The position numbers and the translations under genes are program-made. Positions 13,063 to 29,032 of a stretch of 31,018 nt of DNA are shown here, piece after piece. The stretch lies in assembly GCA_023512255.1 (NCBI GenBank), contig JAILZY010000039.1, forward strand, positions 1 through 31,018. The letters run 5' to 3'. How positions within the stretch are numbered: the first letter of the stretch is position 1; the number at the start of each line of letters is the position of its first letter. A model generated the notes under the pieces. The model searched no databases, had not been told where the DNA came from, and saw only the letters and a list, made by a program, of their open reading frames with translations. Origin of the DNA: a bacterium (GTDB lineage Bacteria; SZUA-182; DTGQ01).

Positions 13063-14703
13063 ATGAAACGTATCACACTACTAACAGAAGGACCTTGGGC
13101 ATTGATCGGTCTGAACGTCCTCTTGATTGCGGGTATTTACCACTCGACGCTCACCTGGTTGATCATCCATGATTGGGCACGGGAGGATTTCAGCTACTGC
13201 TACTTGGTGCCACTAATAATTCTCTACCTTATCTGGGAAAGAAGGGGGAAATTAGTCGATCTGCCTTCAGTACCCTCCTGGGGTGGCCTTGCGCCACTGG
13301 TGGTTGGGCTTTCACTTTTCTGGCTCGGAGAGCTTGGCGGAGAGTATTTTACGCTCTATATTTCCCTGTGGCTGGTCATCGTTGGACTTTGCTGGATTTA
13401 CCTAGGCTGGCAAAAGATTAAGACTATAGCTTTTGTCCTATTCCTTGCCTTGAGCATGTTTCCCCTGCCAAATTTTCTCTACGGCAAGCTTGCGGTCAGA
13501 TTCAAGCTGATCTCCTCATGGCTCGGAGTAGCCCTGATTCAACTCTGGGGTCTGCCTGCTTTTAGGGAAGGAAATATTATTGATCTTGGCTCCATTCAGC
13601 TCCAGGTTGTGGACGCCTGTAGTGGTTTGCGGTATCTTATTCCGCTGATCATGCTGGGATTTATTATGGCCTATTTCTATAAGGCTACTTTCTGGAAGCG
13701 AGCACTCCTGGTTGTCTCGACCTTGCCGCTGGCGATTGTTCTAAACGGCATTAGGATAGCCCTGACAGGTATCCTTTGCCAAATGTGGGATCCGGACATA
13801 GCGGAGGGGTTTTTCCATGATTTTTCCGGCTGGTTTATTTTCATGATCTCACTTGGCTTACTTTTGCTTGAAATTAAAATCCTAAACAGGATCAAACCTG
13901 CCAGCGCAAAACCGCCGTCCCTTGAGTCATCCGCAGTCAGCCACCCCGAGCAGCAGACGGCGCTAGCCGAGACAGCGTCTTCTCCACCTCCTCGGCCGCG
14001 TCATTTTGCCCTGGCTATCTTTAGCCAGCCAGCATCGGTTATCAGTCTGATACTTTTGACCGCCACCTTGGCGGCCTCCCAAGGTATTAATTTCCATGAA
14101 AAAATTCCTCCCTCCCGCCCACTTTCTCACTTTCCCCTACGGATTGGGGAGTGGACCGGCCTGCCTCAACGGATGGATCCAGAGATTGTCGACTCTCTGG
14201 ATTTAAGTGATTACCTAATAGTTGACTATCAAGACCGCAGCGGGGCAAATATTAATTTTTATGTAGCCTACTATGAAAGTCAGCGAAAAGGGGAGTCAAT
14301 TCACTCCCCCGAAACCTGCCTGCCTGGAAGCGGCTGGGTCTTTGAGGAATCAAAACCTATCTCTTTAGATACACCAGGATATTATGGGGGAAAAATGCGG
14401 GTCAATCGCAGTCTGATGCACAAGATGGGGCAGCGACAGCTCTCCTATTACTGGTTTGCCCAGCGAGGCCGCGTTCTCACCAATGCTTATCAGCTAAAAT
14501 TTTTTACCTTCTGGGATGCCCTGACCATGCGCAGAACCGACGGAGCCCTGGTTCGGGTGATTACTCCGGTTTATGACTCAGAGGAGATCGGACAAGCAGA
14601 TGCCAGAATCAAGCGATTCATTCAGAATGTCCTGCCACTTTTGGCCGAATATCTGCCTGGGAAGGAAATCAACCCTAGCAGAGAAAGACTCCCCATAATA
14701 TGA
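13063..14703 (+). CDS. xrtD: Exosortase fused to EpsI domain (XrtD-like, VPLPA-CTERM sorting enzyme)
   Basis: This is a 546-residue inner-membrane protein. Residues 1-275 form an exosortase with about eight membrane segments. The predicted catalytic triad is Cys186 in VVDACSGLRYL, Arg231 in LNGIRIALTG and His252 in EGFFHDFSGWF. A Pro/Ala-rich linker (about 278-312) and one further membrane helix (about 318-340) lead to an EpsI domain with FPLRIGEWTGLP and HSPETCLPGSGW (414-425). Exosortases cleave the C-terminal sorting signal of PEP-CTERM-type proteins and are thought to pass them on for surface attachment. The EpsI fusion and the VPLP/TPLP/VPVP signals in nearby proteins point to the XrtD type instead of XrtA; the subtype is an inference. 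It begins the third block, directly after the second hairpin cassette. Confidence 0.9.
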   Translation: MKRITLLTEGPWALIGLNVLLIAGIYHSTLTWLIIHDWAREDFSYCYLVPLIILYLIWERRGKLVDLPSVPSWGGLAPLVVGLSLFWLGELGGEYFTLYISLWLVIVGLCWIYLGWQKIKTIAFVLFLALSMFPLPNFLYGKLAVRFKLISSWLGVALIQLWGLPAFREGNIIDLGSIQLQVVDACSGLRYLIPLIMLGFIMAYFYKATFWKRALLVVSTLPLAIVLNGIRIALTGILCQMWDPDIAEGFFHDFSGWFIFMISLGLLLLEIKILNRIKPASAKPPSLESSAVSHPEQQTALAETASSPPPRPRHFALAIFSQPASVISLILLTATLAASQGINFHEKIPPSRPLSHFPLRIGEWTGLPQRMDPEIVDSLDLSDYLIVDYQDRSGANINFYVAYYESQRKGESIHSPETCLPGSGWVFEESKPISLDTPGYYGGKMRVNRSLMHKMGQRQLSYYWFAQRGRVLTNAYQLKFFTFWDALTMRRTDGALVRVITPVYDSEEIGQADARIKRFIQNVLPLLAEYLPGKEINPSRERLPII

Positions 14704-19037: not shown

Positions 19038-19838
19038 ATGATCAGGATATATCGGCAAGTGTCGACATGGACTTGGTATATCGCTGCCCTAGCCATTTTT
19101 TTTACCATCCTGCTGGCCACAGCCACAAGTTTGGCCATACCAACCCTCCAGATCAATATTCCCGGCGGCCAGTATGTAGATTATATGCCGGGCAGCCCCT
19201 TCAACGAGGGCATGCTGATTGTCAGTGATGCACCATTTAGTCTCCAGGCGTTCTATGCCCCTGAGAATAAAAAGTCTTATACCTTATCCTCATGGGACTT
19301 CTATCTTTCCTGTGCTCTGATTAATCTTGATGGGACGAAGGTCAGCAGTTTGCCCGATCCTTTTGCGATCAGCATTAATAACCTAAGCTATCCGAGCGAC
19401 TCCTTCTCCTATGGTAAGCCACAGGGACTGCCCCCTCACGGGGTATTTGATACCTATTATATTCAAATTGCGTTTGATTTTGAGCCGACCGACCTTACTC
19501 ATCAGGGGATATTTAATGTGCAGAACCCATCAGAGGGGGGCAAGCCTGGATATATTCATGATTTCAATATCAATGCCCAAGGGTTAGGCAGAAACTATGG
19601 ACTAGTATTCGACCTCTATGCCTATAACCAGAATTACAACACTATTCTCTTTGCTCCTTTTTCTCATAATGCGGCCTTTATTTCTTCCTATAATACAGCG
19701 GGCTTGATTTCGCACAATCAGGGCGACATCGTTCCTCTGCCAGATACTTTATTTCTTCTGGCCATCGGGCTTATGGGTATATGGGGAATCAGGATAGGAA
19801 TTAAGAGAAAGAAGGACACATCAATACTTAAGACTTGA
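19038..19838 (+). CDS. VPLPA/PEP-CTERM sorting-signal protein (surface protein)
   Basis: This is a 266-residue secreted protein of unknown function and a likely exosortase substrate. The N-terminal signal peptide (about 1-34) has a basic start and a long hydrophobic core ending ATSLA. The C terminus has the tripartite sorting signal: VPLPDT (232-237), a hydrophobic helix (about 238-255) and a basic cluster KRKK (256-259). Seven residues (DTSILKT) follow the basic cluster, which is longer than usual and may come from the 17-bp tandem duplication that contains the stop codon. The mature part is beta-rich without a known domain. AAGGAGG lies a few bases before the ATG. It is 210 bp after the TPR lipoprotein gene. 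Confidence 0.82.
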   Translation: MIRIYRQVSTWTWYIAALAIFFTILLATATSLAIPTLQINIPGGQYVDYMPGSPFNEGMLIVSDAPFSLQAFYAPENKKSYTLSSWDFYLSCALINLDGTKVSSLPDPFAISINNLSYPSDSFSYGKPQGLPPHGVFDTYYIQIAFDFEPTDLTHQGIFNVQNPSEGGKPGYIHDFNINAQGLGRNYGLVFDLYAYNQNYNTILFAPFSHNAAFISSYNTAGLISHNQGDIVPLPDTLFLLAIGLMGIWGIRIGIKRKKDTSILKT

Positions 19839-20139: not shown

Positions 20140-20634
20140 TTAGCTTTTCTGTTTAGATAATTCAACTATCTGTTTGCTCAATTCCATGAGCATCTGCATG
20201 ACAGTATCGAATCTCCGGTTTAGCCAGCCTATTTCTTGCCTTATCCCCCCGATCTCCTGCCTCAACTGACTTGTCTGAGTATCAATCTTCTGGTTGAGCT
20301 GTTGACTTAGCTGTCCAATTTCCTGCCTGACCTGCCCAATTTCAGTGTCAATCTTCTGGTTGACCTGCCCAATTTCCTGTCTGACCTGTCTGATTTCCTG
20401 CCTGACCTGCCCGATTTCAGTATCAATCTTCTGATTTAGCTGCCCTATTTCAGTATCAATCTTCTGGTTAAGCTGCCCAATTTCCTGCCTGACCTGCCCG
20501 ATTTCAGTATCAATCTTATGACCAAGAACATCTATCCTTTGATTTAAATATCGGAAATCAGTATCAATAGCGTTGTAGATATCATCAAGCGACATTCTCT
20601 TGATTGCCCGGGCGATTGTGGGTAGATCTGCCAT
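20140..20634 (-). CDS. Coiled-coil repeat protein of unknown function
   Basis: This is a 164-residue cytoplasmic protein without a signal peptide. The short N-terminal helix (MADLPTIARAIKRMSLDDIY) is followed from about residue 36 to 150 by a repetitive coiled coil. It is built from 11-residue units such as KIDTEIGQLNQ and 7-residue units such as EIGQVRQ, with Ile/Leu/Val at core positions and Gln between. ATG 20634 is chosen because GAGGAG lies about 10 bp upstream; a TTG at 20652 sits on that site and is unlikely. Similar short Gln/Glu/Arg coiled coils are common in bacteria as uncharacterised proteins; some resemble coiled-coil modules near Rpn-type genes. The near-identical repeat units suggest recent expansion by duplication. 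No functional assignment is possible. Confidence 0.7.
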   Translation of the reverse strand: MADLPTIARAIKRMSLDDIYNAIDTDFRYLNQRIDVLGHKIDTEIGQVRQEIGQLNQKIDTEIGQLNQKIDTEIGQVRQEIRQVRQEIGQVNQKIDTEIGQVRQEIGQLSQQLNQKIDTQTSQLRQEIGGIRQEIGWLNRRFDTVMQMLMELSKQIVELSKQKS

Positions 20635-20761
20635 AGCGAAATATCTCCTCAATCATCATCTTGGTAAGGTTAAGCTTATAATGCTATGATATTCTGAACC
20701 GTTCATGGAAGTCAAGAGTAAATGTGCCGTTTTCTAGCAAGTTGCTCGGAATAAAGATTTT

Positions 20762-20851
20762 CGCTCTCATTTATTAGCTACCATTGAGAGACATAACCCA
20801 CATAAGAGCTAAGCTCCTTTGAGGGTTTATGGTGTCTGATATATAAGAGCG
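20762..20851 (-). mobile_element. 90-bp MITE-like element, copy 1, with 8-bp flanking duplication
   Basis: The 90 bp are nearly identical (one indel and one or two substitutions) to 28868-28956 in reverse orientation. The ends are imperfect inverted repeats (CGCTCTTATATAT against CGCTCTCATTTAT, 11 of 13). AAGATTTT occurs immediately on both sides (20754-20761 and 20852-20859), as expected for an 8-bp target-site duplication. No coding capacity, so it would need a transposase supplied elsewhere. Confidence 0.75.
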
Positions 20852-20956
20852 AAGATTTTTATTTTGCCGTGATTGTATACTATTTGCCGCAAGTGGGTGT
20901 GTGGGAAAATTAATATGAGGGAAGTAGTGAAATTTAAGGATAGCCAACAAAAAGGT

Positions 20957-21036: not shown

Positions 21037-21741
21037 TCAGCCCCAAACTTTTTTTCTAAATCCGGCTAAACCAAACAGCCCGGAGAACAAAAAGAGCAGC
21101 GTACCCGGCAGGGGAGTAACCTTGATATCATCAAAGAGAGCATAGCTGTCATAGATATTATCTCCCCAATTCTCGATGCCCATGACCACCGTATATGTAC
21201 CGGAAGTTGGGGCCGTATATGACCACTTTGTCCAGGGACCATCCCAGTAATCTGGACGGGGGATGGGGGGAGTCGGAGGAATAGGAGGAGTCATCGGATT
21301 GCCGCTTTCATACCAGGGAACATCAAAGGCAGCCGGATCACCCTTATAGATCCGAACCCAGGCATTATCATAAAATTCCCAGGCATTATCATAAAATTCA
21401 GCGTAATCTCCCCAATCGAAGGCTGCCCAACCATATATAGTCTGGCCAGCAACCAGGTTAAAGCTCTGCTGGATTTTTTGTTCATTTCCTGGGCCATCGG
21501 TTTTGAGAAGTGCAAAATAGCTGCCGCCTACAGGCGAATAGACGGTGGATGGATTACCAGGTCCAGGAATACTGGTATGGCTGCTGACCACCTGGGCGCT
21601 GCCTCCAGGGGTTAGGATTACAGTCCAGCCAGTGAAATCGCCAGTTTCAAAACCATCATTTACCAGGGGAGTAGCCTGAGCAGTTTGAGCCAGAGCAAAG
21701 AGTAGGGTACATACTATAATCAACAAATTCAATCTCTTCAT
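21037..21741 (-). CDS. VPLPA/PEP-CTERM protein with lectin/CBM-like beta domain
   Basis: This is a 234-residue secreted protein and likely exosortase substrate. The signal peptide is about residues 1-23 (MKRLNLLIIVCTLLFALAQT, then AQA). The mature part opens with NDGFETGDFTGW, a start typical of jelly-roll carbohydrate-binding-like domains in PEP-CTERM proteins, and ends SYALFDDIKV. The sorting signal is TPLPGT (209-214), a hydrophobic helix and FRKK. A Pro-rich loop (MTPPIPPTPPIPRP) interrupts the domain, and seven residues EFYDNAW are tandemly duplicated by an in-frame 21-bp repeat. AAGGAGG precedes the ATG at good spacing. It lies 45 bp after the neighbouring sorting-signal gene, so the pair is probably an operon ended by the hairpin at 20957-20997. 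Confidence 0.85.
   Translation of the reverse strand: MKRLNLLIIVCTLLFALAQTAQATPLVNDGFETGDFTGWTVILTPGGSAQVVSSHTSIPGPGNPSTVYSPVGGSYFALLKTDGPGNEQKIQQSFNLVAGQTIYGWAAFDWGDYAEFYDNAWEFYDNAWVRIYKGDPAAFDVPWYESGNPMTPPIPPTPPIPRPDYWDGPWTKWSYTAPTSGTYTVVMGIENWGDNIYDSYALFDDIKVTPLPGTLLFLFSGLFGLAGFRKKVWG
21357..21398. repeat. Perfect in-frame 21-bp tandem duplication
   Basis: Two identical 21-bp units (21357-21377 and 21378-21398) inside the sorting-signal gene encode EFYDNAW twice. The perfect identity suggests a recent duplication that kept the reading frame. Confidence 0.92.
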
Positions 21742-21786: not shown

Positions 21787-22383
21787 TTAGGCAATCTTCT
21801 TCTTCAGTCCTACCATTCCAAGTAAACCGAAACTAAGCAGGAGCACTGTCGGCGGCACAGGAACAGGGGTTTCCGAGTAGCCAAGGTTATCAATGGTGTA
21901 ATGATTCCCTGAGTCATGAATCTTTACATAGGCGATTTCTGCAGTCGGGCGATCAACATATAACTTGTTGTTCGTACCGAGGTTGCTGCCGGAAAAGACA
22001 CTTTTAGTCAACAGGATATCAGATGAATTGTAGGCCTCAAGATATAAATCGCTGGCCGTTGTGAACCACAGACTTACATAAGCCATCGGATCAGTAAAGT
22101 CTATCCTGATTAAGCTATTGGTTTTGCTGAACAGGATAGTGTTACCAGAATAGGGTGGATAATCTGTATTGTTATACTCAGACTGGCCACTGACCATAAT
22201 CATGGCATCCGGCCCGAAGGTTACCTCAGGATGTCCAGGATAATTATTTCCTAAATTTGTATTACCCCCACCTGTGCCGTATCGATAGGTATTGGGGACG
22301 CTTTCAAAGTCAAGAACGGTTAAGGCATACGCAGGGGAAGCAATCAGTACGATAGTCATGATAAACAGCAACAGTTTTCTCAT
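21787..22383 (-). CDS. VPLPA/PEP-CTERM sorting-signal protein
   Basis: This is a 198-residue secreted protein of unknown role and likely exosortase substrate. The signal peptide is MRKLLLFIMTIVLIASPAYA. The mature part starts LTVLDFESVP and continues with YVSLWFTTASDLYLEAYNSS and YTIDNLGYSE, an arrangement seen in many PEP-CTERM proteins with a lectin-like beta-sandwich. The sorting signal is VPVPPT (174-179), a Leu-rich helix and KKK. AAGGAG lies just upstream of the ATG. It is the first gene of a two-gene minus-strand operon with the neighbour at 21037. Asn/Gly/Tyr-rich composition is typical of extracellular matrix proteins. Confidence 0.85.
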   Translation of the reverse strand: MRKLLLFIMTIVLIASPAYALTVLDFESVPNTYRYGTGGGNTNLGNNYPGHPEVTFGPDAMIMVSGQSEYNNTDYPPYSGNTILFSKTNSLIRIDFTDPMAYVSLWFTTASDLYLEAYNSSDILLTKSVFSGSNLGTNNKLYVDRPTAEIAYVKIHDSGNHYTIDNLGYSETPVPVPPTVLLLSFGLLGMVGLKKKIA

Positions 22384-23116: not shown

Positions 23117-23746
23117 TCAAATAACAGCCGGAGCAGCCAGGGTGAGCTGGAAAGCTCCGGTTTCAAGGATGGTCTTGCTCTGGGTTATCGTGTAATTACC
23201 AGCCATATCGGTGAGGGAAGAGAGTGTGCCCACAATTTGAACAGTAACGGTTGTGCCGGTTACTGAAAGACCTGTTCCACTCAAAATTACCTGATTATTC
23301 AAAAGCTGACCAGTGATATTGACCAAGGTTGGGATAATGGCATTATTTGCTAGCAAAACAGTACCGGTCAAATTGGTTGGAACCAGCGGGTCTTGAACAA
23401 TGGTCAGGGTCATGGGATTAGGGCTAGCATAGGTGATCCACCAAAGGCCTTGCCAGGTTCCCGCCTGCTCGGCCAGGCCGTATCTTAAGCCGCCGAGGCC
23501 GCCAAGGCCATAGAGTCCACCCAAAAGTCCACCATAGCCATATAGCCCGCCAAGACCGTATAGCCCATAGAGCCCAGAAAGCCCATAGAGCCCATACAAA
23601 CCGCCAAGGCCATAGAGCCCACCCAAAAGTCCACCATAGCCATAGCTATAATAGGCCCGAGCAGCTCTTGCTGGAATCACGGTTAAAACCACTAGGAAAA
23701 GAAGCCAAGTAATCAATCTCTTCGGTTGGGTAAACAGATTCATCAT
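23117..23746 (-). CDS. Secreted Gly-Leu-Tyr-repeat protein with C-terminal beta domain
   Basis: This is a 209-residue exported protein of unknown function. ATG 23746 (or 23743) is chosen because GGAGGA lies 7 bp upstream; an earlier in-frame ATG would add 12 residues without such a site. The signal peptide is about residues 1-30 (MNLFTQPKRLITWLLFLVVL, ending ARA). Residues ~31-90 are a low-complexity block of GGLYGL, GLYGLSGL and YGYGGLLGG units made only of Gly, Leu and Tyr (plus one Ser). The rest (from TWQGLWW) is beta-strand-rich with alternating Thr/Val and G-Y-T turns, resembling a small barrel or sandwich. There is no C-terminal sorting helix or cysteine. Its place beside exosortase substrates suggests an extracellular matrix or fibre role, which is inference. 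Confidence 0.75.
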   Translation of the reverse strand: MMNLFTQPKRLITWLLFLVVLTVIPARAARAYYSYGYGGLLGGLYGLGGLYGLYGLSGLYGLYGLGGLYGYGGLLGGLYGLGGLGGLRYGLAEQAGTWQGLWWITYASPNPMTLTIVQDPLVPTNLTGTVLLANNAIIPTLVNITGQLLNNQVILSGTGLSVTGTTVTVQIVGTLSSLTDMAGNYTITQSKTILETGAFQLTLAAPAVI

Positions 23747-23782
23747 CGTAGTCTCCTCCATAACCATACCCAAAATAACCAT

Positions 23783-24721
23783 ACCAAAGACCTTGGGGAA
23801 AATTGAACAATTTAATAAAGACCCTAATTCACCTTACCAAACCCGCTGTGGCTGCTACCCACTCCTTTATGTCATGGGTTTTGGCTTCATGCCGATTTTG
23901 GTTTCAATGCTGCAGCTACCTTAGTGGTTCTTTCACTAAGTGCGTAACACAAGTTGCGCAGCGGATCAATTACGCTATCAATTGTAGCCTGCGGCCCTTG
24001 TGCCCGCCGCAGCTTGCGCACTTTATTAGCGAAAAGACCACTTAGTGAAGTTGTCGCCCACCCCCTTCCATCATGGGTTTTATAGCTCAAAAAGCTTCGC
24101 TTAAACTCAGTGGGTATTTAACCGCCATGAAAAGAATTGTGCTTCCTCAACTATTCCTCACAATAGGCAATATTGATACCAGTCAAAAGAGAAATGGCCA
24201 ACTTACTCAATAAAGGCTTATTCAATCAAGCCCTAATCAAGCCCCAAGAGCTAAGCAATCTGCTAAACTCTATATACACCGCGAGAGTGCGCCAATAGCC
24301 CGAAAGCAAGCTGCAAGCTCTCTTTAGGCTAACCCGAAGGGTGATTGCCTGACAAATTGATTAGCCAATAATATCAAGATGTTATAGAGTTATCCTAAAA
24401 TTGCTGATTAATCCACCTACATTTTTGCAGAAGTTTCTTAACGCCTTGAAATCCTTGAAACTTACCTCTAATAGCAAATCCAGTAAAATTAAGGGTTTCA
24501 GAGAAAAAGTGCCTTCAGATAAAAAGTGCAAAAGCAAAGTACAAAAGCATAAAATCAACATAACCATTTGATATCTTATGATATTGGTAAGATTTACATG
24601 CGATTGCCCTGGGGGCTAACCCGAAGTTGTCAGCTACGCCTAGATTCTGGGCAGGCGGTTTGTTTTGCGAAAGAATTTGTCATAAAAGATATTAAGGAGA
24701 AATCATAAGGTTTGTGTAAGT
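23783..24721. other. 939-bp spacer with a repeat element
   Basis: The spacer between two minus-strand genes carries one copy of the 126-bp TTAG..CTAA element (23920-24045). The rest is AT-rich with no supported gene. The phrase GGCTAACCCGAAG occurs twice (near 24317 and 24613), and CATGGGTTTT occurs on both sides of the element. A promoter for the Gly-Leu-Tyr protein gene is expected near 23783-23850 on the minus strand but was not recognised. Confidence 0.5.
23920..24045. mobile_element. TTAG..CTAA inverted-repeat element, copy 1
   Basis: The 126-bp element has ~20-bp imperfect terminal inverted repeats: CTTAGTGGTTCTTTCACTAA and the complement of TTAGCGAAAAGACCACTTAG, 16 of 20 matching. Its interior (GCGCAGCGGATCAATTACG, then GCCTGCGG and GCCCGCCGCAGCTTG) recurs at 27511-27694 and, more divergently, at 30442-30555. 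It has no coding capacity and can fold on itself, so it is either a non-autonomous transposon or a conserved structured repeat. Confidence 0.65.
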
Positions 24722-27510: not shown

Positions 27511-27694
27511 TAAATGGTTTCCTCGCTAAGTGCGTAACCCAAGTGCGCAGCGGATAAATTCGAGTCAGCCAGGGCCAGGATCCTATGCCAAGGCGTAACC
27601 CAAGTGCGCAGCGGATCAATTACGCTATCAATTTTAGCCTGCGGCCTTGTGCCCGCCGCAGCTTGTGCACTTTATTAGCGAAAAGACCACTAAA
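27511..27694. mobile_element. TTAG..CTAA inverted-repeat element, copy 2 with internal duplication
   Basis: This is the same element as 23920-24045, with closely matching right half (GCTTGTGCACTTTATTAGCG) and left end TGGTTTCCTCGCTAAG. It is longer because GCGTAACCCAAGTGCGCAGC and the next few bases occur twice, 61 bp apart (from 27532 and from 27593), with unique sequence between them. Confidence 0.65.
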
Positions 27695-28745: not shown

Positions 28746-28867
28746 TCCCTGGCCCTGGCCAGCCAGGGTATAATGGTTATTTTAGGCATCAGCGCGCCGC
28801 TGGGCGATGGCTGATGAGTCGCCTTGGCTAGCCAAGGGAAAGGACCTTATGTCTAGCTTATGTTAAT

Positions 28868-28956
28868 CGCTCTTATATATCAGACACCATAAACCCTCAA
28901 AGGAGCTTAGCTCTTATTAGGTTATGTCTCTCAATGGTAGCTAATAAATGAGAGCG
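28868..28956 (+). mobile_element. 90-bp MITE-like element, copy 2
   Basis: The 89 bp match the reverse complement of 20762-20851 apart from one indel and one or two substitutions. The flanks ATGTTAAT (left) and ATTGTTAAT (right) look like an 8-bp target duplication with one inserted base. The high identity between copies suggests recent activity or gene-conversion-like exchange. Confidence 0.75.
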
Positions 28957-29032
28957 ATTGTTAATAACCATAATGTTATGTTAATAACCAATATTCATAA
29001 ATCTTCATAAATCGCCCGCAGGCTCCCTTCTC

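Follow-up and report, generated by a model that had tools for sequence, protein, structure and literature searches.

The gene at positions 23117 to 23746 of the window, by which we mean the whole 31,018-nucleotide stretch that was analyzed, encodes a protein that joins a Gly-Leu-Tyr (GLY) block to a predicted avidin-like barrel. With somewhat better than even confidence, we propose that it is one of a lineage-specific set of about 30 secreted structural proteins that would form an extracellular layer, in which the GLY blocks would be the flexible, sticky chains and the barrel would be an oligomerizing or anchoring knob. The features of the gene are as follows.

23117..23746, minus strand: whole gene, 209 amino acids plus stop (ORF reading), comprising signal peptide, Gly-Leu-Tyr block, and avidin-like barrel
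23753..23759, minus strand: ribosome-binding site GGAGGAG, read from the sequence, 6 nt upstream of the ATG
23654..23746, minus strand: putative signal peptide, residues 1-31, MMNLFTQPKRLITWLLFLVVLTVIPARAARA, read by eye
23477..23653, minus strand: Gly-Leu-Tyr block, residues 32-90, 95% G/L/Y by composition
23120..23476, minus strand: C-terminal eight-stranded avidin-like barrel (AlphaFold2, Foldseek, VIA-align, and family profile)

The ORF starts with an ATG at 23746 and stops at 23117-23119 on the minus strand. By eye, the N terminus of its 209-residue product consists of a KR n-region, a hydrophobic stretch, and then ARA, with a putative cleavage site between ARAARA and YYSYG, and the full-length model places a helix over residues 8-23. 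YYG-type starts like this putative mature N terminus recur, and AxA followed directly by YYG is found in most paralogues. Charged residues make up 3.4% of the mature protein, which contains no cysteine, has a calculated pI of 4.3, and ends in ...LTLAAPAVI. The protein looks secreted. A preliminary description of this DNA had divided the gene at 23117-23746 into a signal peptide, a Gly/Leu/Tyr block of ∼60 residues, and a beta-rich domain, an anatomy that the ORF, the composition, and the model confirmed for the block and the beta-rich domain and that the reading by eye and the model support for the putative signal peptide. It had also called the protein undescribed-looking and free of a sorting tail, and both points held up: neither Pfam nor NCBIfam matched the C-terminal domain to any family, sequence searches for relatives of known structure found none for the window protein, and no PEP-CTERM signal was detected in it by Pfam or NCBIfam.

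The GLY block comprises 26 Gly, 17 Leu, and 13 Tyr residues in 59 positions; elsewhere in the window, 60-residue stretches in any frame reach at most 52% G/L/Y unless they overlap residues 32-90. Each of the three amino acids is encoded by several synonymous codons, and the periodicity of the DNA is short and imperfect. The mixed codons imply that the block is not a DNA microsatellite and, taken with the weak periodicity, that an amino acid composition has been kept rather than a DNA repeat. When we searched with a DNA pattern for GLYGGLYG, we obtained 115 matches in the host genome and none with the reversed reading. Across the five related genomes, host first, the counts were 115, 98, 12, 2, and 20, and among 381 other genomes the pattern matched in only one, where it codes for GFYGGFYG. 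The block has no predicted structure, with a pLDDT below 50 for residues 24-93 in the full-length model. As a bare query, it recovered few relatives owing to low-complexity filtering.

The C-terminal beta domain is about 117 amino acids long. AlphaFold2, run on this domain together with five homologues, returned eight strands at a pLDDT of 93, and the top Foldseek match of the model was 4jnj (E 7.5e-4). By VIA-align and Foldseek, the barrel groups with streptavidin-type and redesigned eight-stranded barrels (VIA Z about 12-14), at about 10-16% identity to proteins of the avidin/streptavidin fold. It shares with avidin and streptavidin the eight-stranded barrel, a similar length, and the GTW motif of strand 1. 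Unlike them, it lacks the biotin-site tryptophans and a sequence-profile match: Trp is absent after strand 1 in 22 of 23 barrel domains, and a Pfam search of 23 members at E values up to 1 gave no avidin profile. According to PMC8033661, it is these later-strand tryptophans that matter for biotin contact. The missing tryptophans and the missing profile mean that biotin binding is not expected, and we ruled against it. In every strand, one face is conserved and made up of hydrophobic residues or Gly; the opposite face is polar, rich in Thr, Asn, and Gln, and more variable. This is the pattern that a soluble barrel with a packed core would show. As far as these searches tell, the domain is an unnamed family still missing from the databases.

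With the C-terminal domain as a query, we found 18 further sites in the host genome, the weakest of which was discarded as spurious after reading. Profile A1 counted 19 domain genes in the host genome (the window's included) and 24 in the sister genome. Three other genomes of the order had 6, 3, and 5, and the remaining four of the nine genomes of the phylum had none. Reliable domain matches were limited to these five among the 386 genomes searched, all of one order of a small uncultured phylum; the single match outside the order was marginal and partial (E 2.8e-4). Sixteen of the 19 host domain genes carry a GLY block. In the other three, Pro, Leu, and Ala predominate in a different N-terminal region, and the barrel may therefore also act independently of the block. 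By following GLYGGLYG matches, we found at least 11 additional host genes with a GLY block and no barrel. This gives at least 30 host genes with a block, a barrel, or both, a lower bound drawn from short-read metagenome assemblies. These often break at the repeats, with several family genes located at the ends of contigs, and the repeat lengths read from them are provisional. Barrels of paralogues are 41-55% identical to that of the window. The family has another conserved module, 51 residues long and reading SPFGLQNMYY.I.TGTGLTYQVPFLQIAPLLGIAGLYNSLFPNLFNP (alignment A3), which occurs with or without the barrel and was present in four of the five genomes.

The closest named records are the uncultured MAGs Zod_Metabat.896, from Zodletone Spring, and CSMAG_150 and CSMAG_2299, the latter two labeled Pseudomonadota bacterium and, by their prefix, presumably from a cold-seep catalogue. 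We found no relatives in PLSDB or IMG/VR and ruled against a plasmid or viral origin on that basis. Similarly, Rfam gave no match over 135 kb around 14 family genes, which speaks against a riboswitch or other RNA control.

We built a maximum-likelihood tree of 23 barrels that included 10 host and 11 sister members. Nine of the 10 host members paired with a sister member, and eight branches were well supported; the tenth (L029) fell beside two sister members in a poorly supported part of the tree. Between the window barrel and its sister orthologue, dN was 0.078 and dS 0.91, and this barrel is under purifying selection. The best-scoring paralogues thus correspond one-to-one in host and sister genome, and read from the tree and these rates, the paralogues are an old, separately preserved gene set rather than a recent burst. 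One tandem pair of paralogues (L028, 5269-6144 and 6306-7154) shares a 361-nt stretch, mostly GLY block, that is 99.2% identical, and the two barrels differ. The sister-genome counterparts of this pair are alike only to about 68-69%, and the 99.2% identity would reflect either gene conversion or short-read misassembly.

The proposed layer builds on the family, its architecture, its predicted fold, its distribution, and the long-term preservation of its paralogues as laid out above. A normal signal peptide would export each protein across the inner membrane, and from there we infer a further step across the outer membrane. The uncharged, flexible GLY blocks would then associate with one another by tyrosine stacking, hydrogen bonding, and hydrophobic contact of Leu and Tyr, and this association would give a dense, poorly soluble, yet pliable extracellular layer or thread. 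The C-terminal barrel would be a folded, non-biotin-binding knob, most likely joining chains, as in fibropellin, or fixing them to surface components. In some paralogues, the 51-residue module takes the place of the barrel or is added to it. Such swapping suggests that the members would be exchangeable units from which a single material is built. The preliminary description had proposed a matrix component, and a structural or matrix role, which we likewise infer, is still the best reading.

Two known systems bear on the two halves of the protein. Fibropellins are EGF-repeat proteins of an animal, the sea urchin. They are extracellular and reportedly carry a non-biotin-binding avidin-like domain, which serves oligomerization (Yanai 2005, as cited in PMC8033661). 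The GLY block, for its part, resembles squid ring teeth (suckerins), whose amorphous segment, YGYGGLYGGLYGGLGY / STGTLSYGYGGLYGGLYGGLGYG, owes its flexibility to Gly and its cohesion to hydrogen bonds of Tyr (PMC4555047, PMC6393770). The bacterial GLYGGLYG occurs letter for letter within the squid amorphous segment SYGYGGLYGGLYGGLGYG, and both systems are multigene families of low charge, rich in Gly, Tyr, and Leu. By direct reading, however, the window protein has neither the beta-crystal segments of squid, rich in Ala, Val, Ser, Thr, and His, nor their Pro-bounded alternation, and the partner of the bacterial block is a globular avidin-like barrel. The missing beta-crystal segments limit the mechanical analogy to the soft segment. 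Since the host is a bacterium, the likeness of GLYGGLYG to squid is presumably, indeed most likely, convergence. No paper on bacterial Gly/Tyr-rich matrix or suckerin-like proteins was found in the part of the literature searched.

A wider version of the proposal is that this uncultured order independently evolved a silk-like material from about 30 secreted Gly-Leu-Tyr proteins with the soft-segment motif of squid ring teeth, avidin-like oligomerizing knobs, and, in some members, a CxxCH heme-binding motif. We regard this as a tentative idea and lean against it as a whole. Low-complexity Gly/Tyr proteins underlie animal materials such as squid ring teeth; if the idea is true, a bacterial lineage that invests about 30 genes in the squid motif and a folded end domain would have solved the same material problem independently. 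The family would then also provide natural sequence variants for work on protein materials, and the proposal offers a concrete hypothesis on the cell surface of an uncultured phylum. The CxxCH motif itself was read in three GLY-block proteins from three genomes (L138 4737-5483, L150 1662-2408, and L140 2301-3104), which have the 51-residue module and a conserved C-terminal CTQCH or CVQCH. As this is the heme-c attachment motif, the sequence makes it conceivable that the layer is connected with electron transfer.

Among the alternatives to a structural layer, the one that survives best is that these are ligand-binding or signaling surface proteins, in which the barrel cavity binds a small molecule or glycan that differs from paralogue to paralogue and the GLY block is a flexible, sticky stalk. 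Barrels of the avidin and lipocalin types often bind ligands, those of this family have diverged strongly in sequence yet have been kept one-to-one between species, and three host genes have the barrel without the block. Even so, we think this rather unlikely: nearly all members lack the biotin-site tryptophans past strand 1, the hydrophobic or Gly character of the conserved face suggests that the core is packed and not a polar pocket, and at least 11 GLY-block genes lack a barrel altogether.

Alternatively, the barrel could be a secretion handle that an outer-membrane exporter reads, as in Slam or type XI secretion, with the GLY block as its cargo. The order of parts, cargo first and eight-stranded barrel last, agrees with this. 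NHBA is a Slam cargo, and its C-terminal barrel (5o1r, 6cuj) is among the Foldseek matches. However, the barrel-less GLY-block paralogues would have no handle. Slam (PF04575) did not exceed the cut-off in any of the nine genomes of the phylum, which led us to rule against a Slam-type handle, and this search, for Slam, brought up no dedicated outer-membrane secretion route. We consider the secretion handle improbable.

About as improbable is a surface matrix component that works together with the PEP-CTERM/exosortase system, a reading that the surroundings of the window gene would suggest.

13063..14703, plus strand: exosortase XrtD (TIGR04152, 586.7 bits), part of the surroundings and not of the family
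19038..19838, plus strand: choice-of-anchor N PEP-CTERM protein (NF038141, E 7.6e-29; PF07589 over cut-off)
21037..21741, minus strand: probable PEP-CTERM protein (PF07589, 17.3 bits, below the cut-off of 20.7)
21787..22383, minus strand: PEP-CTERM protein (TIGR02595, 16.7 bits, over the cut-off of 16)

The distance from the window gene to a PEP-CTERM gene is 0.7 kb and that to XrtD 8.4 kb, its product, like the PEP-CTERM substrates next to it, looks secreted, and all five family genomes have an exosortase. Unlike those substrates, the window protein has no PEP-CTERM tail, no family member scanned with Pfam and NCBIfam gave a PEP-CTERM match, and the family is unlinked to exosortase loci. XrtD is the single exosortase detected in the host genome, and the other 18 host domain genes all sit on contigs different from its own. 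The four relatives have 38 domain genes, not one of them on an exosortase contig, so that the window gene is the sole exception among 57 (56 of 57 without) in the five genomes. The sister orthologue is located elsewhere, with no exosortase in the 19.5 kb covered on its sequenced side, and a genome of the same class (G005) has three exosortases and no family members. The neighborhood on which the preliminary description relied is therefore not supported as a link to the exosortase; of the co-occurrence that it proposed to check, only the presence in the same genomes stood. Homologues of the kind it named as counterevidence, lacking the repeat and far from exosortase loci, exist in part, as the three host domain genes without a GLY block indicate. 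The window neighborhood thus looks incidental. Exosortase proximity is clearly not a family property, and the contig locations together with the sister orthologue rule it out as such; the contigs are of limited length, so distant linkage stays compatible with these counts. On present evidence, the mechanism of the proposed layer does not involve the neighboring exosortase. Many domain genes sit among unrelated genes and hence offer no operon context that would back a shared process.

Lastly, a small integral outer-membrane barrel of OmpA/OmpX size displaying the GLY block is very improbable and was ruled against by the residue pattern of the strands: the OmpA transmembrane domain 1qjp is in the VIA-align list (Z 11.9) because both are eight-stranded barrels, but here the conserved face is hydrophobic, starting with the Trp of GTW, and the variable face is rich in Thr, Asn, and Gln, as in soluble barrels, and the last residue of the family proteins is not aromatic.

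Several further features were observed. GLY genes of two genomes have as neighbors S8 subtilases whose prodomain is of the fervidolysin type (L029 2569-4464 and L070 5913-7649), followed in L029 by an M4-type peptidase; from their position, these are possible processing proteases. Within the window, an intergenic repeat of ∼92 bp with inverted ends TCGCTCT...AGAGCGA occurs at 20761-20852 (plus strand) and 28867-28957 (minus strand). It is dispersed in the host genome, where 40 of the 149 first-look candidates were scored as near-full copies, and by its sequence looks like a MITE or REP-type element. Pieces of a second intergenic repeat, up to 98% identical, lie at 23925-24042, just upstream of the GLY gene, and 3.6 kb away at 27515-27691. 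The window gene at 20140-20652 (minus strand) encodes strongly repeated coiled-coil units, QLNQKIDTEIGQVRQEI, and its repetition is also seen at the DNA level.
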